Shown: positions 1 through 27,952 of the stretch, piece by piece
Layout of the letters: every line of letters begins with the position of its first letter
Numbering within the stretch: the first letter of the stretch is position 1
Assembly: GCA_016763645.1 (NCBI GenBank)
Contig: JAESTK010000107.1
Coordinates: forward strand, 1 to 33,278
DNA: 33,278 nucleotides
Direction of reading: 5' to 3'
Source of the DNA: Flavobacteriales bacterium
Lineage (GTDB): Bacteria > Bacteroidota > Bacteroidia > Flavobacteriales_G > NORP312
Program-made: the position numbers and the translations under genes
Notes under the pieces: generated by a model
Database searches by the model: none
The model's input: only the letters and a program-made list of their open reading frames with translations
Told to the model about the DNA's origin: nothing

Positions 1-118
1 CTATCAAACTCAAAAAGATAAAAAACACTAATCAGTAAATTTATACTGAATACAATTGAAATTGAAAGTAATAAATGGGATTTGGCTTTTAAGAATGAAT
101 AAATTAAAAACAAAATAC

Positions 119-192
119 AACGTTTTGGCTCAGTGCAAACTTGAAAGTTTATCGCTTTCTACTGCCCTACTTGCCATATACTAAACGTTAGC
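119..192. repeat. Imperfect inverted repeat in gene-free DNA
   Basis: AACGTTTTGGC at 119-129 pairs imperfectly with GCCATATACTAAACGTT at 173-189. The GCCA and AACGTT blocks of each arm are complementary, with extra bases in the right arm and about 43 bases between the arms. The right arm continues as GTTAGC. The shape recalls recombination sites or dispersed non-coding repeats of Bacteroidota, but the ends do not fit the integron attC core (GTTRRRY) exactly. Function is unknown. Confidence 0.35.
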
Positions 193-227
193 AAATATTC
201 GAAAAAGACTGCAACTTAAGGGTTCCG

Positions 228-252
228 TTTTTTAAGATGAAATCTTAAAAAA
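228..252. repeat. Perfect 11-bp AT-rich hairpin
   Basis: TTTTTTAAGAT (228-238), a GAA loop (239-241) and ATCTTAAAAAA (242-252) form a perfect stem of 11 bp, seen directly. It lies about 40 bp upstream of the -33 element of the rplU promoter. The stem has almost no GC and no U tract follows it, so it is a poor intrinsic terminator. It could be an operator or a structure at the end of a gene outside the window. The rest of 1-293 shows nothing I can call. Confidence 0.5.
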
Positions 253-293
253 TGCCAATAAAACTGCATGGGTTAATATTTCCCAACAACCCC

Positions 294-324
294 TTTGGTA
301 GTCCCAGTTAATTACCTACTTTTG
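294..324 (+). promoter_or_regulatory. Consensus Bacteroidota promoter for rplU-rpmA
   Basis: TTTG at 294-297 is followed after exactly 19 bases by TACTTTTG at 317-324. This is a full match to the Bacteroidota primary sigma consensus (TTTG, about 19 bp, TAnnTTTG). Transcription would start near 328-330 and leave a leader of about 40 nt, too short for a large structured L21 leader. It is the best promoter match in the window. Confidence 0.8.
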
Positions 325-366
325 CAGCCCTTAATTTTAATTATTAACCAATAACAATTAACTGTT

Positions 367-903
367 ATGTACGCAATCGTAGAGATAGCAGGGCAACAAT
401 TCAAAGTTGAAAAAGACCAACAGGTTTACGTTCATCGTTTGGAAGCAAAAGAAGGCTCAAAAGTTGAGTTTGACAATGTGCTTTTAATCGATAATGGAGG
501 TAAAATCGCTGTAGGCGCCCCAGCTATAGTAGGTGCAAAAGTTACTGCAAAAGTACTTCAACACCTTAAAGGCGACAAAGTAATCGTCTTTAAAAAGAAA
601 AGAAGAAAAGGCTACAAAGTAAAGAACGGACACCGTGAATACTTAAGTCATATTCAAATCGAGAAAATCGAGGAGAAAGGTGCTAAAGCTTCGGCAAGCT
701 CAACAACCGCTAAAGCAGGAGTGAAAACTGAGGCTAAACCAGCAGCAAAAGCTCCTGCAAAGCCAAAAGCTGAGCCGAAGAAAGCAGCAACACCAAAAGC
801 AGATGCTTCGACAAGCTCAGCAACCGCAAAGCCTAAGGCAGAGCCAAAAGCTAAAGCGGCACCGAAAAATGAAACTAAAAAAGAAGATAAGTCTGATAAA
901 TAA
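367..903 (+). CDS. rplU: 50S ribosomal protein L21 with Lys/Ala/Pro-rich C-terminal tail
   Basis: This is a structural protein of the large ribosomal subunit that binds 23S rRNA. Residues 1 to about 103 are an ordinary L21 domain: it begins MYAIVEIAGQQFKVEKDQ and contains the basic block KKKRRKGYKVKNGHR that ends the conserved fold. L21 is usually just over 100 residues, so residues 104-178 are an extra tail made almost only of Ala, Lys, Pro, Glu, Ser and Thr, surely disordered. The tail contains two near-copies of a 23-base sequence (see the repeat entries) and two copies of AKPKAEPK, so it seems to have grown by repeat insertion or duplication. A consensus promoter lies upstream and rpmA follows 28 bp downstream, the usual L21-L27 operon. 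Identity is certain; the role of the tail is unknown. Confidence 0.97.
   Translation: MYAIVEIAGQQFKVEKDQQVYVHRLEAKEGSKVEFDNVLLIDNGGKIAVGAPAIVGAKVTAKVLQHLKGDKVIVFKKKRRKGYKVKNGHREYLSHIQIEKIEEKGAKASASSTTAKAGVKTEAKPAAKAPAKPKAEPKKAATPKADASTSSATAKPKAEPKAKAAPKNETKKEDKSDK
688..710. repeat. REP-like repeat, copy 1, inside the rplU tail
   Basis: This 23-base unit starts GCTTCGGCAAGCTC and ends CAACCGC. It differs from the copy at 805-827 at only two positions. Its core GCTT-4 nt-AAGC is a small palindrome. The wording resembles the CTTCGACAAGCTCAG type of dispersed repeat often met between genes in Bacteroidota; that resemblance is from memory and unchecked. Confidence 0.5.
805..827. repeat. REP-like repeat, copy 2, inside the rplU tail
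   Basis: The unit starts GCTTCGACAAGCTCAG and ends CAACCGC, matching 21 of 23 bases of the copy at 688-710, 117 bp away. It is read in the same codon phase as copy 1 and gives Ala/Ser/Thr residues in both. Because the flanks of the two copies are only loosely similar, insertion of a dispersed element is as likely as simple tandem duplication. Confidence 0.5.
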
Positions 904-931
904 TCAGATGTAATTATAAAATCGTAAAACC

Positions 932-1192
932 ATGGCACATAAGAAAGGAGCAGGTAGTTCGAAAAACGGTAGAGAGTCAGAAAGTAAACGTCTAGGGGTT
1001 AAAATCTTTGGAGGTCAACTGGCTATCGCAGGAAATATTATTGTTCGCCAAAGAGGAACAAGACATAACCCAGGTGCAAACGTAGGTCTTGGGAAAGACC
1101 ATACACTTTTTGCATTAACTGATGGGATTGTTACATTTAAGAAAAAAAGAGACAACAAGTCTTTTGTATCGGTAGAGCCTTTATCTGAATAA
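932..1192 (+). CDS. rpmA: 50S ribosomal protein L27
   Basis: L27 is a large-subunit protein whose flexible N-terminus reaches the peptidyl transferase centre. The 86-residue product has the family length and hallmarks: [20 protein letters not shown] at the N-terminus with no Firmicutes-type cleavable extension, then the IVRQRGT and HPG-like NPGANVG segments, and a C-terminal beta region with GIVTFKKK. It lies 28 bp after rplU and is followed by a strong terminator, so the two genes form a closed bicistronic operon. Identification is secure. Confidence 0.97.
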
Positions 1193-1216
1193 GGGAATTA
1201 CCTTTTAATGAATTTT

Positions 1217-1257
1217 AAAATCCTTCCCGCAATTAGCGTGGAAGGATTTTTTATTTT
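1217..1257 (+). terminator. Intrinsic terminator after rpmA
   Basis: AAAATCCTTCC (1217-1227) and GGAAGGATTTT (1240-1250) form a perfect 11-bp stem with a 12-nt loop, followed by a T-rich run to about 1257. It sits 24 bp after the rpmA stop. Its T tract runs into the TATTTTCG box proposed as the serS promoter. Confidence 0.88.
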
Positions 1258-1259
1258 CG
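1252..1259 (+). promoter_or_regulatory. Probable -7 box for serS
   Basis: TATTTTCG matches TAnnTTTG except for one T to C change and lies 22 bp before the serS ATG. It overlaps the T tail of the rpmA terminator. No convincing -33 element is visible 19 bp upstream because the terminator hairpin occupies that position. Confidence 0.4.
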
Positions 1260-1281
1260 CATACCTCATAAAGAATAAAAC

Positions 1282-2553
1282 ATGCTGCAAGTATCAGTTG
1301 TAAGAGAAAACATAGAAGAAACAATTAAACGCCTTGAGATTCGTAATCTACCAGGAAAAGATTTGGTTGCTCAGATTATCGAATTAGACGATAAACGTAA
1401 AAAAACGCAGCAAGAACTTGATGCTCATCTAGCAGAAGCAAATTCTATTTCTAAACAAATAGGCGGCTTATTTAAGGAAGGGAAAATTGAGGAAGCCAAT
1501 GCGTTAAAGGCTAAAACTTCAGAACTAAAAGAACTAAACCATCAAGGCACAGAAGCTCTGCACGCTACACAAGAAGAATTGAAGCAGTTGCTTTATACAA
1601 TTCCGAATACCCCAGAACTAAGTGTTCCGAAAGGAAACACAGAAGAAGATAACGAAATTATTTTCGAGCAAGGCGAACTTCCTTCGATGGATAACGATGC
1701 TAAGCCGCATTGGGAAATAACCGAAAAATACGATATTGTCGATTTCGAATTAGGTGTTAAAATTGCTGGAGCTGGATTTCCAGTTTACAAAGGCAAAGGC
1801 GCTAGATTGCAACGAGCTTTGGTAAACTTTTTTTTAGATAACGCTACAGCTGCGGGTTATCGAGAAATACAACCACCATTATTAATAAACGAAGCAAGTG
1901 GCTACGGAACAGGCCAACTGCCCGACAAGGAAGGGCAGATGTACCATACTGCTGTCGATGATCTTTATCTAATTCCCACGGCAGAAGTTCCGATTACAAA
2001 TATGTACCGCGATATAATTTTAAAGAAAGCAGATTTCCCTGTTAAAAACTGTGCTTACACCCAATGTTTTAGAAGAGAAGCTGGTTCTTATGGGAGCGAT
2101 GTTCGTGGTTTAAATAGATTACACCAATTCGACAAAGTAGAAATTGTTCAACTTTCACACCCCGATAAATCGTACGAATTGTTGGACGAAATGGTTGATT
2201 ATATCAAAACATTGTTGACAAAACTGGAATTGCCATTCCGTATTTTAAAACTTTGTGGAGGTGATTTAGGTTTCACCGCGGCACTAACTTACGATTTCGA
2301 AGTATATTCTGCTGCACAGAAAAAATGGTTAGAAGTTAGCTCGGTCTCTTGTTTCGAAACGTATCAAGCAAACCGATTGAAACTTCGTTATAAAGACAAA
2401 AATGGAAAAATGCAATTGGCACATACACTAAACGGAAGCGCATTAGCGTTCCCTAGAATTATTGCCGCATTATTAGAAAATAATCAATCAGAAAAAGGCG
2501 TTAAGTTACCTAAAGCTTTGGCTGAATACACCGGTTTTGAATACATAAATTAA
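1282..2553 (+). CDS. serS: Serine--tRNA ligase
   Basis: This class II aminoacyl-tRNA synthetase charges tRNA-Ser, and tRNA-Sec where present, with serine in the cytoplasm. The 423-residue product has the normal length. Residues 1 to about 110 are the N-terminal antiparallel coiled-coil arm that grips the long variable arm of tRNA-Ser; they are rich in Lys, Glu and Ala heptads. The catalytic core follows, with motif 2 (FRREAGSYGSDVRGLNRLHQ) and motif 3 with its arginine (LNGSALAFPRIIAALLENNQ). The ATG lies 29 bp after the rpmA terminator stem. The next gene starts one base after the stop, so serS probably heads the operon running to mgtE. Confidence 0.97.
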   Translation: MLQVSVVRENIEETIKRLEIRNLPGKDLVAQIIELDDKRKKTQQELDAHLAEANSISKQIGGLFKEGKIEEANALKAKTSELKELNHQGTEALHATQEELKQLLYTIPNTPELSVPKGNTEEDNEIIFEQGELPSMDNDAKPHWEITEKYDIVDFELGVKIAGAGFPVYKGKGARLQRALVNFFLDNATAAGYREIQPPLLINEASGYGTGQLPDKEGQMYHTAVDDLYLIPTAEVPITNMYRDIILKKADFPVKNCAYTQCFRREAGSYGSDVRGLNRLHQFDKVEIVQLSHPDKSYELLDEMVDYIKTLLTKLELPFRILKLCGGDLGFTAALTYDFEVYSAAQKKWLEVSSVSCFETYQANRLKLRYKDKNGKMQLAHTLNGSALAFPRIIAALLENNQSEKGVKLPKALAEYTGFEYIN

Positions 2554-2554
2554 G

Positions 2555-3103
2555 ATGAAGAAATTACTTACAATTGCCCTTATTGCTGCCACAATCATTT
2601 TTACTTCTTGTGGTAATCCTGAAGTTGAAGAAATGGTCGCTATAATTGATAGTTCGTACGTTGCCGTACAAAAGGCAGAAGCGAAACTACTCGCCATCGA
2701 TACGGCCGAAATTGGAAAAATGATGCGATTTAACAACAAATCGTTAGCCTACATTCAAGACAATTTTAAGGATACTGCAACTAAAGAACAAGGTATTTTC
2801 ATGTCCGATATTGTTGCCGTGAAACGGTCGTTTAGCAAATTAAACAAACAACGTGAATCGCTTATTGATGATATGATTTACGCAAAGTCGCAATTAAACG
2901 ACTTGAAAAAAGATGTTGAAAACGGCTTTACGACTAAACAAAATTTTGACGAATACTTCTCTATCGAAAAACAAGCCATCGATCTGTTTATCAGCACGGT
3001 GGAAAGTAGTATGATTTGGAATAACTCGAACACGAATCGCTTCGAAAAAATGAAGCCTCAAATTGAGGAATTTATCGAAAAAATAAACAAATCTGATTCA
3101 TAA
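2555..3103 (+). CDS. Small predicted lipoprotein of unknown function
   Basis: This 182-residue protein begins with a lipoprotein signal: a short basic start, a hydrophobic core and a lipobox ending FTSC, with Cys19 as the likely lipidated residue. The mature part is mostly helical and charged, with Lys/Asp/Glu-rich stretches around residues 60-180, and has no catalytic motif I recognise. It follows serS by one base and precedes a TPR protein with a signal peptide by 13 bp, so the two envelope proteins are probably co-expressed and may act together. I cannot name a family. The lipoprotein call is supported by sequence; the function is unknown. Confidence 0.8.
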   Translation: MKKLLTIALIAATIIFTSCGNPEVEEMVAIIDSSYVAVQKAEAKLLAIDTAEIGKMMRFNNKSLAYIQDNFKDTATKEQGIFMSDIVAVKRSFSKLNKQRESLIDDMIYAKSQLNDLKKDVENGFTTKQNFDEYFSIEKQAIDLFISTVESSMIWNNSNTNRFEKMKPQIEEFIEKINKSDS

Positions 3104-3116
3104 GCGTTAAATCTGT

Positions 3117-4952
3117 GTGAAGCATTTCGCAATCATATCACTACTCGTTTTTCTTGGGCTTTCAAGCTCGCTAATTGCCCAAAATACTGACCAAAAACTT
3201 GCAACACATTACTACCAAAATGGGCAGTACGAACAAGCTATTTTATATTTTGAAAAGCTTTATAAGCAAAATCCAAACGATTACTATTATACCTATTACT
3301 ACAAATCTCTAGTAAATCTAGAAAGGTATTCTGAAGCCGAAAAATTGGCCAGAAAACAAATCAAAAAAGTAAAAGGAAACGTAAAGTATTATGTCGATTT
3401 AGGATATATGTATCATAAAACTGACCAGGCAGAAAAAGGCAAAAAACTGTATGAAAAAGCGATAAAAGATGTCCCTTCAAAAAAACAATCGGTAATGCAA
3501 CTCGCTAAAGCATTCTCTGTAATTGGCGAAAACGAATATGCATTACGAACTTATTTACGAGGGAAAAAAATAGTGAAAAATGGCAATTTCAATATTCAAA
3601 TTGCGGAACTATATGGCACAATGGGGCGTCAATCAGAAATGATTAGCGAATATCTCGATTTACTAGAAATTGATGATATGTACATCCAACAAGTGCAAAA
3701 TGCGTTAGCTAGAACCATTGATTTTAAAGAAGCAACTCCAGAAACTCAACAATTGAAAGGGGAGCTTCTAAAGCGGGTTCAAAAGAATCCAAACAATCGA
3801 ATTTATGCCGAATTATTAATTTGGATTTACATTCAACAAAAAGACTATAAAATGGCAATGGTACAAACCAAGGCATTGGACAAACGATTTAAAGAGAAGG
3901 GGGCAAGGGTTGTTTCTTTAGCTCAAATCTGCAAAAAGAATAAGGAATACGACCTCGCTATTGCTGCCTACGAATATGTGCTCGCCAAGGGGAGAAAAAC
4001 ACCGTATTATTCGATTAGTAAAAAAGCGGTGCTAAACGTGATGAACGAAAAAATAACGTCTACCGCAACCTATACCAAAGAAGATTTAGCCAACCTCGAA
4101 ACCAAATATTACGAAACTCTAGACGATTTAGGAAGAACACAGAAAACAATTGACATTCTTAAAGATTTAGCGGTTCTTCAAGCGTTTTATATCCACAATA
4201 TTGACACAGCTATTTATAACCTAAACCGAGCAATTACCACTCCTGCAATAAAACCTCAAGACAAGGCAGAGTGCAAATTAATTTTGGGGGATTTACTACT
4301 CATTAAAGGCGAAATTTGGGATGCCGCATTACTATACGCACAGGTTGATAAAGATTTTAAATACGACCAATTAGGCGAGCGAGCTAAACTGAAAACAGCC
4401 AAAATTCATTATTTTACCGGAAATTTCAACTTCGCAAAAGGTCAATTAGATGTATTAAAAGGCTCTACATCAAAACTTATCGCGAATGATGCAATGGCCT
4501 TGTCGATTCTTATCACAGATAATTCTACAGTAGACACCTCTACTACCCCTCTTTTAATGTATGCGCGAGCCGATTTAATGAGTTATCAAAACAAAGATTC
4601 GTTGGCTAATCTGGTGTTAGTCTCGCTCAATCAAGAATATCCTGGTCACGCTTTAGCAGATGAAGTATGGTATAAAAAATACGAAATTGCTTATAAAAAT
4701 AGAAAGTTTGACGATTGTGTTACTTATCTCGAATCGATTGCAACCACTTATAGTTATGATGTTTTAGCTGATGACGCTAACATGAAACTTGCACAACTAT
4801 ACGATTACGTGTTCAAAGATTTGGAGAAGGCAAAAGAATACTACGGCAAAATATTATTCGATTACAAGGGCAGCCTTTTTGTTGTTGAAGCAAGGAAACG
4901 TTACCGAGAAATTGAAGCTGAAACACCTACAATAAAAGATGATAATTTATAA
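3117..4952 (+). CDS. Exported tetratricopeptide-repeat protein
   Basis: The 611-residue protein has a signal peptide (MKHFAIISLLVFLG to SLIAQ, cleavage near residue 22). It then consists almost entirely of TPR-like helical pairs, for example YYQNGQYEQAILYFEKLYKQ near residue 33 and KKNKEYDLAIAAYEYVLAKG near residue 285. The start is a GTG at 3117, chosen because the signal peptide begins exactly there and no in-frame ATG fits. Such proteins usually act as scaffolds in the periplasm or at the outer membrane. The gene sits between a lipoprotein and a DUF4286 gene and overlaps the latter by 14 bp, which indicates translational coupling. No enzymatic domain is visible; the partner is unknown. Confidence 0.85.
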   Translation: MKHFAIISLLVFLGLSSSLIAQNTDQKLATHYYQNGQYEQAILYFEKLYKQNPNDYYYTYYYKSLVNLERYSEAEKLARKQIKKVKGNVKYYVDLGYMYHKTDQAEKGKKLYEKAIKDVPSKKQSVMQLAKAFSVIGENEYALRTYLRGKKIVKNGNFNIQIAELYGTMGRQSEMISEYLDLLEIDDMYIQQVQNALARTIDFKEATPETQQLKGELLKRVQKNPNNRIYAELLIWIYIQQKDYKMAMVQTKALDKRFKEKGARVVSLAQICKKNKEYDLAIAAYEYVLAKGRKTPYYSISKKAVLNVMNEKITSTATYTKEDLANLETKYYETLDDLGRTQKTIDILKDLAVLQAFYIHNIDTAIYNLNRAITTPAIKPQDKAECKLILGDLLLIKGEIWDAALLYAQVDKDFKYDQLGERAKLKTAKIHYFTGNFNFAKGQLDVLKGSTSKLIANDAMALSILITDNSTVDTSTTPLLMYARADLMSYQNKDSLANLVLVSLNQEYPGHALADEVWYKKYEIAYKNRKFDDCVTYLESIATTYSYDVLADDANMKLAQLYDYVFKDLEKAKEYYGKILFDYKGSLFVVEARKRYREIEAETPTIKDDNL

Positions 4953-10235: not shown

Positions 10236-11342
10236 TTGAAAAAAATCAAAAAAATACTAATTGTAGTAGGCACTCGTCCAAACTTTATTAAGGTAACTCA
10301 ATTCAAAAAAATTGTTGAAGAAAATTATGCTCAATTTGATTTAAAAATCGTTCATACGGGCCAACATTACGACCACAAAATGGCCGATGTATTTTTTGAA
10401 CAATTCAATTTATTACCCGACTATTTTCTTAACATCGGCAAGGGAGATCAAACAGAGCAAATTGCTTTTGTAAAGACTAAGCTTGAAGAACTGTTACTCA
10501 ATACTTTTAAGGCAGATTTAGTAATTGTTCCGGGCGATGTTAATTCAACGTTAGCGGCAGCTCAGGTTGCTAATAAAATAGGTATTAAACTTGCTCATTT
10601 AGAAAGTGGTTTACGTTCTTTCGACAACGCAATGCCTGAGGAACGAAATCGTATTTTAACTGATAAATTATCTGATTACTATTTTGTAACCGAACAAAGT
10701 GGAATGAATCACTTAAAAGTAGAAAACCAGAAAGGAGAGGTGTTTTTTGTAGGCAACACAATGATTGATACAATGGTTGCTTTCAAAAATCAAATTCAAG
10801 CCAGTTCTATTCTTCGTTCGCTTAAATTAGAAGAAAACAAATTTGTTTTAATGACCATTCATCGTCCGTCAAATGTTGATTCTAAAGAAGGTCTTCTCAA
10901 ACTCTTAAATTTGCTAAACCACCTTAATGGGAAGCTAAAAATCGTGTTTCCAATTCATCCGCGTACAGAACAACGAATTAAAGATTTTGGATTAGAAAAT
11001 AAATTCAATGAAATTGAATCGTTGACTCGAACCGAGCCTATGAATTATTTCGATTTTCAAAAACTGATCAGTAATTGCAAGTGTGTTTTAACCGATAGTG
11101 GCGGAATTCAAGAAGAAACTACATTCTTAAAAAAACCGTGTTTAACCCTAAGAGAAAATACGGAGCGGCCAAGTACTGTGGAGTTGGGGACAAACACCCT
11201 TGTGCCATTCGATCCCGAAGCTATTAAAAAGGAATTAGACTCTATCCTTAACGGAACATATAAATCAGGCGAAATTCCTCCATTGTGGGATGGAAAGACA
11301 ACCAAAAGAATTCTTAAAATTATCGCAAATTTGCAGCTGTGA
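10236..11342 (+). CDS. wecB: UDP-N-acetylglucosamine 2-epimerase (non-hydrolysing)
   Basis: The enzyme interconverts UDP-GlcNAc and UDP-ManNAc, a precursor for surface polysaccharide. The GT-B fold protein carries the family motifs: GTRPNFIK at the start, HTGQHYD, PGDVNSTLAAA, the MPEERNR motif, IHRPSNVD, PIHPRTEQR, DSGGIQEE and LRENTERPSTVELGTN. I take the TTG at 10236 as start because translation from it gives MKKIKKILIVVGTRPNFIK, as in relatives; the frame also stays open to a TTG at 10200. The next gene overlaps by 4 bp. The symbol wecB is by function; no enterobacterial antigen cluster is present here. Confidence 0.9.
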   Translation: MKKIKKILIVVGTRPNFIKVTQFKKIVEENYAQFDLKIVHTGQHYDHKMADVFFEQFNLLPDYFLNIGKGDQTEQIAFVKTKLEELLLNTFKADLVIVPGDVNSTLAAAQVANKIGIKLAHLESGLRSFDNAMPEERNRILTDKLSDYYFVTEQSGMNHLKVENQKGEVFFVGNTMIDTMVAFKNQIQASSILRSLKLEENKFVLMTIHRPSNVDSKEGLLKLLNLLNHLNGKLKIVFPIHPRTEQRIKDFGLENKFNEIESLTRTEPMNYFDFQKLISNCKCVLTDSGGIQEETTFLKKPCLTLRENTERPSTVELGTNTLVPFDPEAIKKELDSILNGTYKSGEIPPLWDGKTTKRILKIIANLQL

Positions 11343-12529
11343 AGATCCTCTATTATTCTCCTCATCCAGAGCTTAACTATTCCTTTTCTACTGGATATGG
11401 CAACCACATGCGCGGAATGGTAAACGCATTTAAAGAGTTGGGGCATGAAGTAGAGCTTTGCATTATTGGAGGTACCACCAAAGAAATGACTTCTCCCGCA
11501 GCAGCAAAAGTGCCTTTTGGACTAAAAAATCTGCTAAAAAAAATTGTTCCGCATATTATATGGAGTAGCCTAAAAGATAGAGAGATACAAAAGGTAAATT
11601 CTGCTGCATATCATACCCTCGAAGCCAAAGTAAAAACATTCGACCCTGATTTAATATACGAGCGGGCATTTTACCTTATGCCTTCTGGATGTGATATTTC
11701 TGAAAAATATACGATACCGCACATCGTTGAAATTAACTCTCCTTACGAATACGAGCAACTTCTTCTCGAAGGCAAAACTTTACTAACGGGAGTTGCAAGA
11801 AAAGTTGAGAAAAAACTGCTAACTCAACCCGATTTAGTTTGTGCCGTTTCATCTTCCATAAAATCTTATTTTCTAGAGCGGCATCCTGAAATCGATGAGA
11901 AAAAAATAATTGTTACCCCAAATGCCGTGATTGGCTTAGCTGAAAAAAGCACCCTAGCTATACCACTCAAAGAGAAGTTAAACGGCAAAACGGTTGTAGG
12001 CTTTGTTGGTTCAATTTTCGCATACCATGGGGTAGATAAATTAATTGAAGCATTCGCAAAAACAAACCCCCTTGAGAACAATCTTGCATTACTCATTGTA
12101 GGAAACGGTTCGATATTAGGTGAACTCAAACAATTAACCGTAGATTTAAACATAGCCGCATCGGTACAATTTACTGGTCAAATTGAGCATACGCTAGTAA
12201 GTTCTTATATCGATTTAATGGACATTACCGTACTGGCAAATACAGAATGGTATTGCTCTCCCGTCAAATTATTTGATTATGGTTTACAGGGAAAAGCGAT
12301 CGTTGCCATTAATCAACCTGGGGTTACCGATGTTATGACCAACAATCTTGATGGGCTAATTATCAACAATAATGAGGGTGATTTAGTTGATGCCATCAAC
12401 CAATTAGCCTCTGACAAACCGTTAAGAGAATCTTTAGGCACTACTTTTCAGAAGAAAATCCTTTCTCAACATACTTGGAAAGCAACCGCACAAAAAGTTT
12501 TATCAACCCTCGAAGAAAAGTTAAAATAA
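11339..12529 (+). CDS. Glycosyltransferase family 4
   Basis: This 396-residue GT-B glycosyltransferase transfers a sugar from a nucleotide donor to a glycan or lipid acceptor at the cytoplasmic face of the inner membrane. The N-terminal half opens MKILYYSPHPELNYSFSTGYG. The C-terminal Rossmann half has GFVGSIFAYHGVDKLIEAF, LLIVGNGSI, and the donor-site region VKLFDYGLQGKAIVAI, matching Glycos_transf_1 proteins. The start is a GTG overlapping the epimerase stop by 4 bp, so the two are translationally coupled. Together they suggest a surface glycan step; donor and acceptor cannot be read from sequence. Confidence 0.88.
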   Translation: MKILYYSPHPELNYSFSTGYGNHMRGMVNAFKELGHEVELCIIGGTTKEMTSPAAAKVPFGLKNLLKKIVPHIIWSSLKDREIQKVNSAAYHTLEAKVKTFDPDLIYERAFYLMPSGCDISEKYTIPHIVEINSPYEYEQLLLEGKTLLTGVARKVEKKLLTQPDLVCAVSSSIKSYFLERHPEIDEKKIIVTPNAVIGLAEKSTLAIPLKEKLNGKTVVGFVGSIFAYHGVDKLIEAFAKTNPLENNLALLIVGNGSILGELKQLTVDLNIAASVQFTGQIEHTLVSSYIDLMDITVLANTEWYCSPVKLFDYGLQGKAIVAINQPGVTDVMTNNLDGLIINNNEGDLVDAINQLASDKPLRESLGTTFQKKILSQHTWKATAQKVLSTLEEKLK

Positions 12530-15341: not shown

Positions 15342-16149
15342 AATACAAACAATTGACCCGCGGGATAAAATATTTGAGAGCATGTCTCTTACAATTAGTG
15401 AAACAGGAAAGCTCTATTTATCTGGATATTACTGGAAAGAAAGAGGAACAGGAACAGACGGTATTTTCTTATTTACATTAGATAAATCGGGAGTAGTTAA
15501 AGATGAAATATGGGACGATTTTAGTAAAGAATTTATCACAGAAAACTGGTCGGAACGAAGTAAAAACAAGGCGGAGAGAAAAGAGGAAAGAGGCAAAGAT
15601 TTGGGGCTTACCTTGCTTGATTTTAGAAGAATAGTAACCCATGAAGATGGTTCTCTGTCTATTGTTGGGGAACGATATTGGGAAACCACTCATACAACTA
15701 CAGACTCTAAAGGAAACACTCGTACATACACGGTTTACCACTATGGCGATTTAATTATCAGCAGAATATCGAATCAGGGAGAGGTAGTTGGCCATTATCG
15801 TTATGAAAAGCATCACACATATTATGGAGCCTATAATTATTTTGATTTGAACAACGATTTAGCAATTATAACATACAAAAGAAAACTTGACGTAATGGGC
15901 TTAGATTCAGACGAAATGAAAAAGAAGGAAATAAAGGCACTTTCAACCAGTGTATTATCTCTTATTCAAATATCTCCCGAAGGAGAAGAAACTTTAAGTG
16001 GCTTAATGGACTATAGTGACCCTAAATACGAGAGTTACAGAAAATATAAATTAAGACAAGATGTTTTCCTCATGGAAGAAAACGAGGTACTTCTTTTAAC
16101 TTACTACGGGAAAAAAAAGTTTGGTATCGGAAGAATTCGATTTAAGTAA
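15277..16149 (+). pseudogene. C-terminal part of the frameshifted exported protein
   Basis: This frame is +1 relative to the preceding one and overlaps it by 65 bp. Its apparent TTG start at 15277 is probably not used; meaningful sequence starts after the A7 tract at KKGDTEIQTIDPRD. It continues the same style of protein: short beta strands and charged loops (LYLSGYYWKERGTGTDGIFL, GSLSIVGERYW) and ends GKKKFGIGRIRFK. No signal peptide or membrane segment is present in this half, as expected for an internal fragment. Nothing else suggests a separate gene. Confidence 0.75.
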
Positions 16150-16174
16150 ACAACCATTTTTTTACGTAGGTTAC

Positions 16175-18064
16175 CTACTTCTTCCTCTCCTCAATGTGTT
16201 TTAGCGCGACTTCCATGCCGCCATCATTTTTAAGCGTTGCGCGAAGCCAATGCTTGCAATCTTTAAAGTGATCGAACACGTGCATCGGAGGGATTTGGTT
16301 AGGGATAATTTCCATTTTTTTCAGCATTTCGAGTGATTGCCCTTTTGCCCCAGATAAAACAACCAATACATTTTGGCTATATAACTCTTGAATGGCATCC
16401 TCTAAAGCAAATATCCCAGACTGATCAATGAACGGAACGTTTTCCATTCTAATAACTAAAACTTTGATTTCAGGCAATGCATCAACCAATTCTCGAAAAT
16501 GTGAGACAAAACCAAAAAAGAGCGGCCCGTTAAGGTGCTTAAAATAAACTGTATGGTGTAATTCTTCATCAATCGGAGTTTCATCTTTCCACAATGGGTC
16601 AGATTCTCTAATGTCTTCTAGGTTCTCTATCCTGCTTTCCGTAGCAGAGATATCGCCCATACGCTTCATAAAAACGAAAGAGGCAATTACTAACCCCACT
16701 GCTACGGCATAAATTAATTGCCAAAATACTGTTAGCAACAGCACTACTAGCAAAATTATTTTAGCTGATCTACCCATTTTTGGGAAAAATTTTAATCCTT
16801 TATAGTCCATTACATCAATACCTACTGTTATTAAAATTCCTGCAAGCACTGCAGCAGGAATCATCGATGCGATGGGCCCTAAGCCCAGTAACATCACGAA
16901 TAATAGTAGCCCAGTAATTACACCCGATAACCGAGTCTTGCCTCCTGCTTTAATGTTTACAACGGTTCTAATAGTTGCACCTGCTCCAGGTAACCCGCCA
17001 AAAAAGCCTCCAACAATATTCCCAATACCTTGACCAATTAATTCTCTGTTAGGGTTATGGCGTGTTTTTGTCAGGTTGTCCGCTACTACGGATGTTAGTA
17101 GCGAATCGATAGAGCCTAATAACGCTAGAGACAATGCTGATAAAATAAATGGCGCCATAGCGGAGAAACTAAATTCGGTTATTATGCCTAATTGAAAATC
17201 AGGAAATCCACTCGGTACACGACTAATTAATCTCGCATCGATATTGAAAAAGTAAACGCCTGATGTTGTTAGTATAAGTGCGATTAAAGCCCCTGGAATT
17301 CCAATTGGAAATTTCTTGAAGATATATATTATTAAAATTGATAATGATGCCAAAGCAAGGTCAATCCAATTAATCATTGAAAAGGCTTTGCCGTAATACA
17401 TTATTGCGCCTGTAACTCCTTTAGAGTCATTTTTGGCTAATATTTTCGCCTCACTCCTTATGTCCGACAAAGTAACAAACTGCGCTTGAAACAAAGTTTC
17501 CCTGATGTCTTGCAGTACTAATACATTATTATCTGCTTCATTATGCAAAAACTTCTTAAAAATCAACTCTTGTGCCTTTGGCTCAAACGATTCTATGACC
17601 TCTTCATCGTCACCCGAATAATATCCTACAGCAGGTAATACCATCGTTAAAATTATAATCACACCTATTCCTGTCATAAAGCCTGAAATTACTGTATAAG
17701 GAATATACTTAATGTAGGTTCCTAATTTGATAAATCCGAAAAACATCTGGAATACTCCTGCTAAAATAAATACGCCCAAAATTACCGGTAAGGCATCATC
17801 AATTTTCCCATTATAACTTGTCAAAATCCCACCAACAATAAGCATACTTAGTGCTGTCATAGGGGCTGTGGGTCCACTAATTTGTGTTGCTGTTCCTCCA
17901 AAAATCGCTGCAAATAGCGAAATAAAAGCTGCTCCATACAAACCTGCAACCGCTCCAAGTCCAGACTGCTCACCAAAAGCCAACGCTAAAGGTAACGCAA
18001 CAACTCCAGCAGTTAATCCGCCAAAAAGGTCGCCTTTAATATTTGTAAAATCAAAAAATTTCAT
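16175..18064 (-). CDS. SulP family inorganic anion transporter with STAS domain
   Basis: SulP (SLC26-like) proteins move sulfate, bicarbonate or other anions across the inner membrane. The 629-residue product has the transporter core from residue 5 to about 470, with the early motif GGLTAGVVALPLALAFG, QISGPTAPMTAL, and the conserved block NIVGGFFGGLPGAGATIRTV. A cytoplasmic C-terminal STAS domain follows (VLVIRMENVPFIDQSGIFAL, about residues 530-615). An unusual soluble-looking insertion at about 145-205 interrupts the membrane core. Bacteroidota members with this layout are often annotated as sulfate permeases, but the substrate cannot be fixed; bicarbonate is equally possible. It ends 25 bp from the converging frameshifted gene. 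Confidence 0.9.
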   Translation of the reverse strand: MKFFDFTNIKGDLFGGLTAGVVALPLALAFGEQSGLGAVAGLYGAAFISLFAAIFGGTATQISGPTAPMTALSMLIVGGILTSYNGKIDDALPVILGVFILAGVFQMFFGFIKLGTYIKYIPYTVISGFMTGIGVIIILTMVLPAVGYYSGDDEEVIESFEPKAQELIFKKFLHNEADNNVLVLQDIRETLFQAQFVTLSDIRSEAKILAKNDSKGVTGAIMYYGKAFSMINWIDLALASLSILIIYIFKKFPIGIPGALIALILTTSGVYFFNIDARLISRVPSGFPDFQLGIITEFSFSAMAPFILSALSLALLGSIDSLLTSVVADNLTKTRHNPNRELIGQGIGNIVGGFFGGLPGAGATIRTVVNIKAGGKTRLSGVITGLLLFVMLLGLGPIASMIPAAVLAGILITVGIDVMDYKGLKFFPKMGRSAKIILLVVLLLTVFWQLIYAVAVGLVIASFVFMKRMGDISATESRIENLEDIRESDPLWKDETPIDEELHHTVYFKHLNGPLFFGFVSHFRELVDALPEIKVLVIRMENVPFIDQSGIFALEDAIQELYSQNVLVVLSGAKGQSLEMLKKMEIIPNQIPPMHVFDHFKDCKHWLRATLKNDGGMEVALKHIEERKK

Positions 18065-18613: not shown

Positions 18614-19531
18614 TTAGACTTCTCCAACAACACCTTCGGTAACGTTAATAGTGTGGTCACCTACTTTTTCTATTGAGTTAAAAAGGTCGCTATATATTGT
18701 TGCACTGTCGAAATTATAATCCCCTTTTTCGACACTTATAAAATGTTCTTTTCTAATTTTCTTACGATAGATGTTTAACGCTGTTTCGTGCTCATTTGCT
18801 TTTTCTAATGTGATTTCAGAATCAAAACCTTCAAGGTTGGCGCACATAGTATCGAGTCCTGCCTTTGCCATATCGAACATTTCATGAATATTGTTTCGTT
18901 GTTCCGGAGTAAACCATATTTTGCCTTCATTCTTTCTTTCAATGGCCTTCGACATTTGATAATAAATATCCCCTATTCTTTCCAAATCACCAATAATGCT
19001 AAGCATTCCCCGCACTTTAAGAGATGAGTCTTCACTCATTTCGCCTTGAGAAACTTTTGCCAAATAATCGGCCACATCGGCTTCGATTCTATCTGTTATA
19101 TCCTCATATTTTTTAATTCTAGCTAAAGTTTGACTCACTTTCTTGTTGTCTTGTTCTGTAACTAACCCTTTCACAAATCCGTTCATTTTTCTAACTATAC
19201 TACCGAATTTAGCAACTTCTTTTTGGGCTTCTAGAATCGACATTTCAGGGGTTGCCATCATTCCTGTACTGATATATTCTAGCGAATATTCTTCATCTGC
19301 ATCGCCTTTGGAAGGAACCATTTTAATAACAAGCTTCTCAATAAGACCAGCAAACCAGACAAGTGTAAAGGTGTTGACGATATTAAAAGTAGTGTGAAAA
19401 ACACTAAGGTTTAAGGGCACATTATCAGAGCTAGAATACGGATCTCCAACTCCTAAAACAGTTTCACTTAACCAAATTGTGAACGGTATAAACGCTTTAA
19501 AAGCAACAAGCATCCAAAAAACACCAAACAA
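18614..19531 (-). pseudogene. Na/Pi cotransporter, C-terminal part with PhoU-like domain (frameshifted)
   Basis: This 305-residue frame carries the last membrane segment of the transporter (FGVFWMLVAFKAFIPFTIWL), then a cytoplasmic helical domain from about residue 95 that resembles PhoU, with repeated helices and metal-site-like acidic clusters (SIIGDLERIGDIYYQMSKAI; SIEKVGDHTINVTEGV). The apparent start at 19531 is a TTG that would be an internal Leu in the restored protein. Adding one A at the AAA tract (19561-19563, minus strand GCTAAAGAG) joins it to the upstream frame through HAKRAARAHLIFNLFG, giving about 565 residues, a normal length for a PhoU-tailed NptA-type transporter. In the sequence as given, this half has no proper translation start. 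Confidence 0.85.
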
Positions 19532-20310
19532 ATTAAATATAAGGTGAGCCCTTGCAGCTCTTTAGCATGAACATTACCGATCAATGCGGCTAAATTTGCC
19601 GTAATTGTTGTCCCAATGTTTTCCCCCAAAACCATAGCTGCAGCGACTTCAAATGGAATCCATCCTTCACTGCACATTACTAATGTAAGTGCCATAGCTG
19701 CACTAGAAGATTGAACTATAAGAGTTAAAATAGTACCTATCCCAACAAACATAATAAGAGACATAAAACCAATGTCTGCGTAACTGGATAAAAATGCCAA
19801 TAGCTCTGGGTTATGCTTAATATCGGGTACCGAATCTTTTAAAGCATCTAGCCCCATAAATAAAATGGCAAATCCGATTAAGAATTCCGCCCAAGATCGC
19901 AATTTGTTACTTTTCGAAAACATCATCGGAAAACCAATGGCAATAATCGGTAGCGCATAGTGAATAAGCTTAAACTTACCCATTAGTCCGAAATAAGTAA
20001 CCAACCAGGCTGTTGTAGTCGTCCCGACATTAGCTCCCATAATTACACCTATCGCCTGAACCAAAGACAGCAACCCAGCATTTACAAAACTGACAACCAT
20101 CACAGTTGAAGCAGACGAAGACTGAACTAAGGTAGTTACGAGAAGACCCGTAAGTACACCTCTAAACCTATTTTTTGTCATAGCAGCCAAAATTTGTCGC
20201 AGCCCGTCACCGGCTACCTTTTGAATTCCCTCACTCATGACTTTCATTCCATAAATGAAAAATCCAAGGGCTCCTACCAGTTTTAATATTTCAAATAATC
20301 CAAATTCCAT
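19468..20310 (-). pseudogene. Na/Pi cotransporter, N-terminal membrane part (frameshifted)
   Basis: This 280-residue frame is the start of a sodium-phosphate cotransporter of the NptA/PF02690 type, which imports (or in some relatives exports) phosphate with Na+. The two hallmark QSSSA repeats are present: LVQSSSASTVMVVSFVNAG near residue 63 and LIVQSSSAAMALTLVM near residue 200. After residue 250 (GNVHAK) the reading leaves the family pattern for 30 residues and stops, because one base is missing. It is transcribed away from the porin/phoBR genes from a region with Pho-box repeats, which supports phosphate as the substrate. As written, the PhoU tail would be lost. Confidence 0.85.
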
Positions 20311-25366: not shown

Positions 25367-25858
25367 CTATTTGTAATTTAAATCGAAAAATGTTTGGTAG
25401 CCCTCGATATCGGTTGCTTTGTAAAACTCTGGGTAGTTAGATACCGAAATAGCGAATTTGGTAGTAGAACTTTCTTTAACTGATTTTAAAATATCGGTGT
25501 TTTCATCAAAAGCTTTGTAGTAATCCATACCTTTAAATACGTTATTAAACGTTTTTACAGTTATTAATCTTTCGCCAGAACTGAATACAGTTGAGCTAAT
25601 TTTTAATTTTGCTGATTTAAAATATTTTCTATTAAAGTCAGAAATAGCAATTTTTGCTTTGTTCATGTCCACGCCTTCTTTGGGTAAAATAATGATAAAA
25701 TGGTGTTTTGCATCTGCCTTAAATTTGTACTGAATTTTATCTTCACTTTCTTCTTCTCCTTCAACAGGAGCTCCTTTCGTGATATAGGCTAACGTTCTTT
25801 TTGCGACTTTAGCTTCTGGGGTTCCTGAATGTTGCTTAATTATGTTTTCTAAGGCTTC
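25367..25858 (-). pseudogene. SprE/PorW, C-terminal segment downstream of an in-frame stop
   Basis: After TAA at 25859-25861 the same reading frame stays open for 163 codons and continues the protein (EALENIIKQHSGTPEAKVAKR, then a stretch of Glu, then a domain with KADAKHHFIIILPKEGVD). The C-terminal part (FAISVSNYPEFYKATDIEGY, DLNYK) matches the end of flavobacterial gliding TPR proteins as I know them. An internal ATG at 25672 gives 101 residues but is unlikely to be a separate gene. Frame identity is shown by arithmetic: 27952 and 25672 are in the same phase. The first 163 codons should therefore be the lost tail of the gene upstream. Confidence 0.85.
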
Positions 25859-27952
25859 TTAGTAAGCAGAAACACTCTCTGTTTCACCAATTGACTGCGC
25901 CCTTAAATAATGAAACTTAGACAGCAATTCGCTTCCTTTATATGTAGAATCAGCTTTCTTCGTGTTTTTAATTACCGACATATGGCTTCCTTTTTTATAA
26001 AGGTGATATGTGGTTTCGTAAAACTTAGATGCAGCCGATGCTTGATTTTTTTCTCTATCCATATACTCCGGATCTTCAATCAATTTGGCGTATTGCGAAG
26101 TAGGAAAATCTTGCAATACCTTATTTTTAAATTGATTTGATTTTACGGTATTACCCATTTCGCTGTACAATCTGTACAATTGATAGTAGGCACTTACATG
26201 AAATTTACTAGTGTCGTACCGAGTTACTAAATCTTCAAAGGAAACGATTGCTTGTTTGTTGTCTTTTAGTTTTTCTTTATACACCAAGCCCAAATCGTAT
26301 AACGCGGCAATAATACTGTTGTGCGATTTCTTTAGTTTTTTCTTATCGTTTGGGATATTTTGAAGATAATACCTCGGATTTTTTAAGTCGTTCGAAGTAG
26401 CGTTAGTGTCTTCCACGCCCAAGTCTTCGAGCTCGCCATAGTCATCATCAAAGCCGGAACTTGCGATTGACGATTTATTTTTTCTTCTCCAGTTATCTTC
26501 CAATTTTCTATTACCCCACTTTTTCTTGAATTCAGTTTTTCCATACGCAATAGTTGCAGGATTATAAAAATACCATTCAGTACTACTCCCTTGGTTAATT
26601 TTTACGTTAGTTGGGGCGTTTTGTGCATTTAGTGCATTGGCTTCTTCTTCAGATTTTTTCTGTTCTTCTTCTTCCTTTATTTTACGAATAATATTATCTA
26701 CAATTTTTTGCTGCTCCGCCTTTGGTAAGGTTGATAAACGCTGCAAACTATCTTCTTTACTTACAATCAGTATATCTTTTACCAAGCGAGTAAGACTGTT
26801 TCTTTTTTCTAGAATATCTGGGTATTCTGGTTGTGATTTGTCGACAAAAGTTACTGTACTATCAAAGTACGCTTGGGCTTGTATGTAGTTTTTGTCATCG
26901 AAATAAATATCTGCCAATCGATTAAACGATTTTGCTTTTTGCTCATCGTTCGATATACTTTTTGCGTATGATAATTCGAGGTATTCTATTCCTTTTTGTT
27001 TGTTATTTTCCTTTAGCTCGAGCTCGGCCAATGCGTAATAAATTTGATCGTAAAATTCTTCGTATTTTTCATCTCGTGCCATTTCTTTCAGATTGGTCTT
27101 TATAGGGCCACTATTGCCCCCTTCGTGAGCTAAAGCACTATGGATATTGGCATAAAACCCCATTTCATAGTCTGGGTTAAGTTTTAAAACCGCATCATAG
27201 TAGCGTATCGCATTTTTAGACTGTCCGCTTTTTTGATATACCTGAGCCAAAATAAAGGTAAGTCTAGCTTTATCTTTTCTTTTTTTCGTGTATTCCAACG
27301 CGTTTTTTATTTCCTTAGCGGCAGATTCGTAATTTTCTTGTTTTAAATAAAAATCTGCTTTTACAGCTTTCAACTCCGCTAACTGCTTTTTAGGGAATTC
27401 CTCACTATTACTACACTTATCGAGATATCCTCTCGCCTTGGAAAACTCCTCGGCTTCTATATATGTCCGGGCTAGCCAAAGCATAGCATCGTAGTGAATC
27501 GGATCCTCTTGGTATTCATTAGCAACATAAACGAGCATTTCTTCAGCCTTTTCATAGTCTTTTTTATAAAAACTTGCTTGCCCTATCAAAAAATAGCTGT
27601 CGTCAACCCAAGCACAGTACTCCACTTTTTTAATGTACATAGAATGATTGTTAATTACATTCGAACTTTTTTCAATAGCTCGGTCCATTTGTGGATAAAT
27701 GGATCTAGCATCACTTTCGTCACCATAAATATAAATCGGTAAAATGTTTTCGTAATCCTCTTTATGCGTTTCAACCAATTTTTTTGAGCCTTCTTTAACG
27801 CTTTCTTTTGCATTAAAATAGCCATTATACTTAGCCGTAACATTATGGTAAGTTCTATTTACTGGCGAATTTTTTTCGGTAGAACACCCAAATAAAATCA
27901 ATAGCGAGACTGCTAGTAAATTAATCTTTGTATTTAAAAATTTGTTCTTCAA
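25859..27952 (-). CDS. SprE/PorW-like T9SS and gliding TPR lipoprotein, stopped early
   Basis: SprE (PorW) is an outer-membrane-associated TPR lipoprotein needed for type IX secretion and gliding in flavobacteria. The 697-residue product has a lipobox LLILFGC (Cys23) and the family N-terminus NRTYHNVTAKYNGYFNAKES. TPR pairs follow throughout (for example KARLTFILAQVYQKSGQSKNAI, positions near 232-253), with a charged low-complexity segment around 420-455 and a second TPR block near the end. The reading ends in TAC TAA (25859-25861). With one base changed in that TAA the gene would encode 861 residues, close to the usual length. Either the organism makes a truncated protein or the base is wrong. 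Confidence 0.88.
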   Translation of the reverse strand: MKNKFLNTKINLLAVSLLILFGCSTEKNSPVNRTYHNVTAKYNGYFNAKESVKEGSKKLVETHKEDYENILPIYIYGDESDARSIYPQMDRAIEKSSNVINNHSMYIKKVEYCAWVDDSYFLIGQASFYKKDYEKAEEMLVYVANEYQEDPIHYDAMLWLARTYIEAEEFSKARGYLDKCSNSEEFPKKQLAELKAVKADFYLKQENYESAAKEIKNALEYTKKRKDKARLTFILAQVYQKSGQSKNAIRYYDAVLKLNPDYEMGFYANIHSALAHEGGNSGPIKTNLKEMARDEKYEEFYDQIYYALAELELKENNKQKGIEYLELSYAKSISNDEQKAKSFNRLADIYFDDKNYIQAQAYFDSTVTFVDKSQPEYPDILEKRNSLTRLVKDILIVSKEDSLQRLSTLPKAEQQKIVDNIIRKIKEEEEQKKSEEEANALNAQNAPTNVKINQGSSTEWYFYNPATIAYGKTEFKKKWGNRKLEDNWRRKNKSSIASSGFDDDYGELEDLGVEDTNATSNDLKNPRYYLQNIPNDKKKLKKSHNSIIAALYDLGLVYKEKLKDNKQAIVSFEDLVTRYDTSKFHVSAYYQLYRLYSEMGNTVKSNQFKNKVLQDFPTSQYAKLIEDPEYMDREKNQASAASKFYETTYHLYKKGSHMSVIKNTKKADSTYKGSELLSKFHYLRAQSIGETESVSAY

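Follow-up and report, generated by a model that had tools for sequence, protein, structure and literature searches.

An In-frame TAA Divides the sprE/porW Gene of a Flavobacteriales Draft Genome and Is Probably a Consensus Error

Overall Organization of the sprE/porW Locus

The window, a stretch of 33,278 nucleotides that constitutes contig 55 of a Flavobacteriales draft genome, carries on its minus strand a sprE/porW gene divided by an in-frame stop codon (Table 1). The minus strand reads GCT TAC TAA GAA GCC at this point, with the TAA at 25861-25859. The gene starts with the TTG at 27952 and runs for 697 codons up to the TAA, after which the same frame remains open for a further 163 codons and ends with a TAG at 25369-25367, giving a total of 861 codons. 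As the TAA occupies codon 698, no full-length SprE with its C-terminal tail in one frame was found in the sequence as written.

The 697-residue part scored 671.5 bits against NF052312 (T9SS PorW/SprE), an NCBIfam equivalog model with a curated cut-off of 250 bits, and matched SprE of Flavobacterium johnsoniae (PDB code 8gl8, chain I) with an E value of 2.3e-71. The 163-codon remainder alone produced no match to any library model and corresponds to the C terminus of SprE, to which it aligned in 34 relatives; alignments with relatives extend through query residue 860 or 861. A lipoprotein signal with a lipobox cysteine is present at the N terminus (LLAVSLLILFGCST), aligning to LGCST of the same-genus copies, and is followed by a TPR scaffold recognized by many Pfam TPR matches. 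The gene thus shares with F. johnsoniae SprE (870 aa) the lipobox, the TPR scaffold, the low-complexity finger region that interrupts this scaffold, the C-terminal tail, and a length of ∼860 residues, and differs from it by the TAA at codon 698, which is found in the present assembly only. No second copy of sprE was found in the genome. In all, this is a SprE/PorW lipoprotein gene of the ordinary kind, present once in the genome and belonging to the type IX secretion system (T9SS). The original prediction, that an in-frame TAA splits an otherwise complete SprE/PorW gene of family-typical length (861 residues) and that the break is confined to a single codon, was borne out in each of these respects.

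Table 1. Positions of the sprE/porW features and of the other broken genes. Positions without a contig are those of the window; G000 is the genome under study.
Feature	Position	Strand	Description
sprE/porW 5' part	25862..27952	-	TTG start, lipobox LFGC, TPR scaffold, 697 codons; NF052312 671 bits; PDB 8gl8_I; same-genus identity 76-79%
In-frame TAA, codon 698	25859..25861	-	Direct reading; sense codon in every aligned relative
sprE 3' part	25367..25858	-	163 codons + TAG; end of last TPR and C-terminal tail; same-genus identity 71-77%, pN/pS 0.16-0.21; tail in 34/34 aligned relatives
Na/Pi cotransporter, PhoU-like C-terminal half	18614..20310	-	Net one-base deletion near 19561-19564; same contig as sprE
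secA	G000 contig 104 (L086) 109-3300		One base lost (net) near position 1570; unbroken in the two same-genus genomes
lptB (TIGR04406)	G000 contig 104 (L087, from 20001) 15859-16586		One-base deletion; ∼0.8 kb from contig end
Conserved 468-aa polytopic membrane protein gene	G000 contig 199 (L090) 1-1375		Two one-base deletions; contig start
Nramp transporter gene	G000 contig 171 (L092) 11262-11595		Two-base shift after residue 51; ends after residue 112

Continuation of the Reading Frame beyond the TAA

A search of 399 kb of this genome for neighboring same-frame open stretches, each of at least 80 codons with a single stop in between, revealed 27 such pairs. Only in the sprE pair is the stop followed by a long coding-like opening without a start codon (62 codons); the four next-best pairs are ordinary gene neighbors. 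The continuation of the sprE frame beyond the TAA is therefore not due to chance.

Separately, a coding-like frame of 130 codons was observed directly after the stop of trpS (G000 contig 131, L082, from 20001; 891-1290), the first 23 codons of which include no ATG, GTG, or TTG.

Within the sprE remainder, a 101-codon ORF begins with the internal GTG at 25672 and could in principle support a pair of distinct genes, or a protein programmed to be made in two parts, the second from its own start. However, the first ATG, GTG, or TTG is found only beyond the 62 start-free codons, the gene is divided at this point in none of the relatives (34 aligned, and the matches listed from 297 genomes), and a fragment of an outer-membrane lipoprotein standing alone would presumably have no export signal, making this the most improbable of the explanations considered. 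The uninterrupted frame, with equal constraint on either side of the stop (see below), would also be expected if the TAA were read through or recoded to give full-length SprE from the sequence as written. Yet most long ORFs in this genome end in TAA (123 of 205), the same-genus orthologues have no need of such a device, and the pattern was seen in no other gene within the 399 kb. No TAA-reading anticodon was present among the tRNA genes called by ARAGORN at Rfam tRNA matches in this incomplete genome, and a readthrough signal was as absent here as the original prediction had stated. Readthrough is consequently regarded as highly improbable.

Conservation of SprE in Relatives

Both same-genus genomes carry an intact sprE orthologue (79 and 76% identity) with the same upstream neighbors, encoding an M23 peptidase, RNase HI, a bestrophin-like protein, and dxs. 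A SprE match was found in 286 of 297 related genomes and, among the matches listed from these 297, no other relative has a premature stop in SprE; the comparison with close relatives that had been proposed as a check on the split gene thus revealed no gene divided at the position of the TAA. Only one other listed match (G261) was flagged with an internal stop; this TAA falls right where the match begins on the N-terminal side, ahead of the likely start, and hence is no premature stop. A truncation shared with relatives was accordingly ruled out. A short SprE match in G224 was likewise rejected as a truncation, as it ends at the end of its contig. A search of a contig database produced only distant SprE homologues (≤39% identity), with no other assembly of the species among them, and a plasmid search produced no match.

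The part of SprE that follows the stop is kept in all 34 aligned relatives, where it comprises 146-176 residues (394 in one Parabacteroides). The residue at the stop column itself varies among them, so that this site is tolerant. Comparison with the two same-genus copies gave pN/pS values of 0.13-0.14 for the whole part before the stop, 0.19-0.20 for the 163 codons immediately preceding it, and 0.16-0.21 after it, values that compare fractions rather than rates because synonymous sites are saturated. The differences by codon position are also much alike on either side of the stop. These substitution patterns indicate purifying selection on the tail within the genus, with no decay. As constraint after the stop is about the same as that before it, the lesion is either very recent or not real.

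Frame Breaks in the Draft Assembly

The source assembly is a draft of 361 contigs (3.3 Mb, 92.1% complete). Because screening by codon usage alone misses frameshifts, frames were checked by comparison with relatives, matching the proteins of two relatives to DNA sampled from this genome and vice versa; the sampled stretches were non-random, having been picked partly for T9SS genes, tRNA genes, and long contigs. This revealed seven frame breaks in six genes of this genome (Table 1) within 80,254 coding bases (71 gene blocks), with the 468-residue membrane protein gene broken twice. In the two relatives the check covered 61,351 and 70,747 bases and turned up no credible break (Fisher's exact test, p = 0.002; 0.006 without the Nramp gene). 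Two breaks flagged in the relatives were dismissed, one being a stop upstream of the start and the other lying in a degenerate second copy.

The secA gene is split into frames of 519 and 633 residues, as compared with 1130-1131 residues in relatives, and no other SecA match was found in the genome. Because bacteria in general cannot do without SecA and LptB, the breaks in secA and lptB are almost surely sequence errors. The Na/Pi cotransporter gene, which has both NaPi and PhoU family matches, is divided between ORFs of 280 and 305 codons, whereas the relative G001 has a single frame of 565 residues. The 468-residue polytopic membrane protein has no NCBIfam match and is presumably the NrfD-like subunit of alternative complex III. 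The Nramp transporter fragment is followed by unrelated sequence, and this lesion may be either a real remnant or a misjoin.

The pattern resembles that of false frame breaks in draft metagenome assemblies in that essential single-copy genes (secA and lptB) are broken here and intact in relatives. It differs in one respect at sprE, where the lesion is a substitution, whereas all of the other lesions are small deletions. Three of the six lesion genes (secA, lptB, and the 468-residue protein gene) are within 1.6 kb of a contig end, and sprE is 7.4 kb inside its contig. There was no sign of a raised rate of substitution errors at the 48 invariant columns of SprE, where this sequence has no deviations as compared with 0-3 in other relatives, a comparison of low power.

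Origin and Consequences of the Premature Stop

Collectively, these data suggest that the TAA at 25859-25861 is a wrong consensus base or assembly error in the draft, with a probability of roughly 0.7. This reading is favored because the 361-contig assembly breaks essential genes that are unbroken in relatives, and because the same-genus copies of sprE are intact, constraint is equal after the stop, and the T9SS is otherwise present. We infer that the TAA base most likely belongs to the class of error demonstrated for this assembly. In that case, the cell itself would have a sense codon at this position and would make the usual SprE of ∼860 residues, the protein that holds the periplasmic extension of the SprA translocon together. 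Gene losses or pseudogenes should not be called from this assembly without recourse to the raw data.

A real nonsense mutation of very recent origin, either fixed in the strain that was sampled or belonging to a strain variant chosen for the consensus, is unlikely but retains a sizeable share, since the sprE lesion is a substitution and the errors elsewhere in the assembly are deletions. The 697-residue protein would end inside the last TPR and would have no C-terminal tail. Most TPRs would be retained, as would the finger region, the lipid anchor, and the binding regions for SprA and SkpA, and the protein may be fully or partly functional. The F. johnsoniae protein, which is essential for type IX secretion and gliding (Lauber et al., PMC10994853), has 13 TPR units, binds SprA through regions near its N terminus, and ends in 113 poorly ordered residues, and removal of F759-P870 (112 residues) has no detectable effect on secretion or gliding (PMC10994853). 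In Porphyromonas gingivalis the C-terminal region of PorW has been reported to bind PorN (PMC8754138) and appears to be dispensable for transport (PMC10994853). The TAA, in a column variable among relatives, maps to approximately residue 724 of F. johnsoniae SprE. The engineered sprE(Δcterm) strain of F. johnsoniae, in which F759-P870 is removed, is thus similar in having a C-terminal truncation of SprE, and it both secretes and glides; however, the stop described here is ∼35 residues earlier and inside the last TPR, such that ∼35 structured residues beyond the tested deletion would also be lost. This further loss argues against a nonsense mutation, as do the retention of a tail of at least 146 residues in every aligned relative, the purifying selection acting on it in the genus, and the false breaks demonstrable in this assembly.

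The original prediction also held that the lifestyle would be greatly changed by a real truncation. This was overstated: F. johnsoniae SprE lacking F759-P870 supports secretion and gliding (PMC10994853), SprA, PorV, GldL, GldM, GldN, and more than 130 cargo tails are present in this genome, and from a deletion of no detectable effect extended by ∼35 residues such a change does not follow. Given the frame breaks in secA and lptB, sequence error is in any case the likelier explanation. It is rather doubtful that the stop is real and fixed and that a working T9SS runs with a SprE lacking part of the last TPR and the tail. If so, nature would have produced an equivalent of the engineered F. johnsoniae truncation, and a slightly more extensive one; any real stop at this position would put to a natural test the extent of SprE required by the T9SS.

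Type IX Secretion System of the Genome

The other T9SS genes, the state of which had been put forward as a further check on the truncation, are intact in this genome for SprA (an open frame of 2474 residues), PorV, GldL, GldM, and GldN, and more than 130 T9SS C-terminal signal domains are above the cut-off. Two cargo domains flagged with internal stops were examined and rejected, one having a normal C-terminal stop and the other lying at a contig start. Two GldN genes are above the family cut-off in each of G000, G001, and G002; those of the present genome (G000) are located on contigs 73 and 299, with the contig 299 copy following gldL and gldM.
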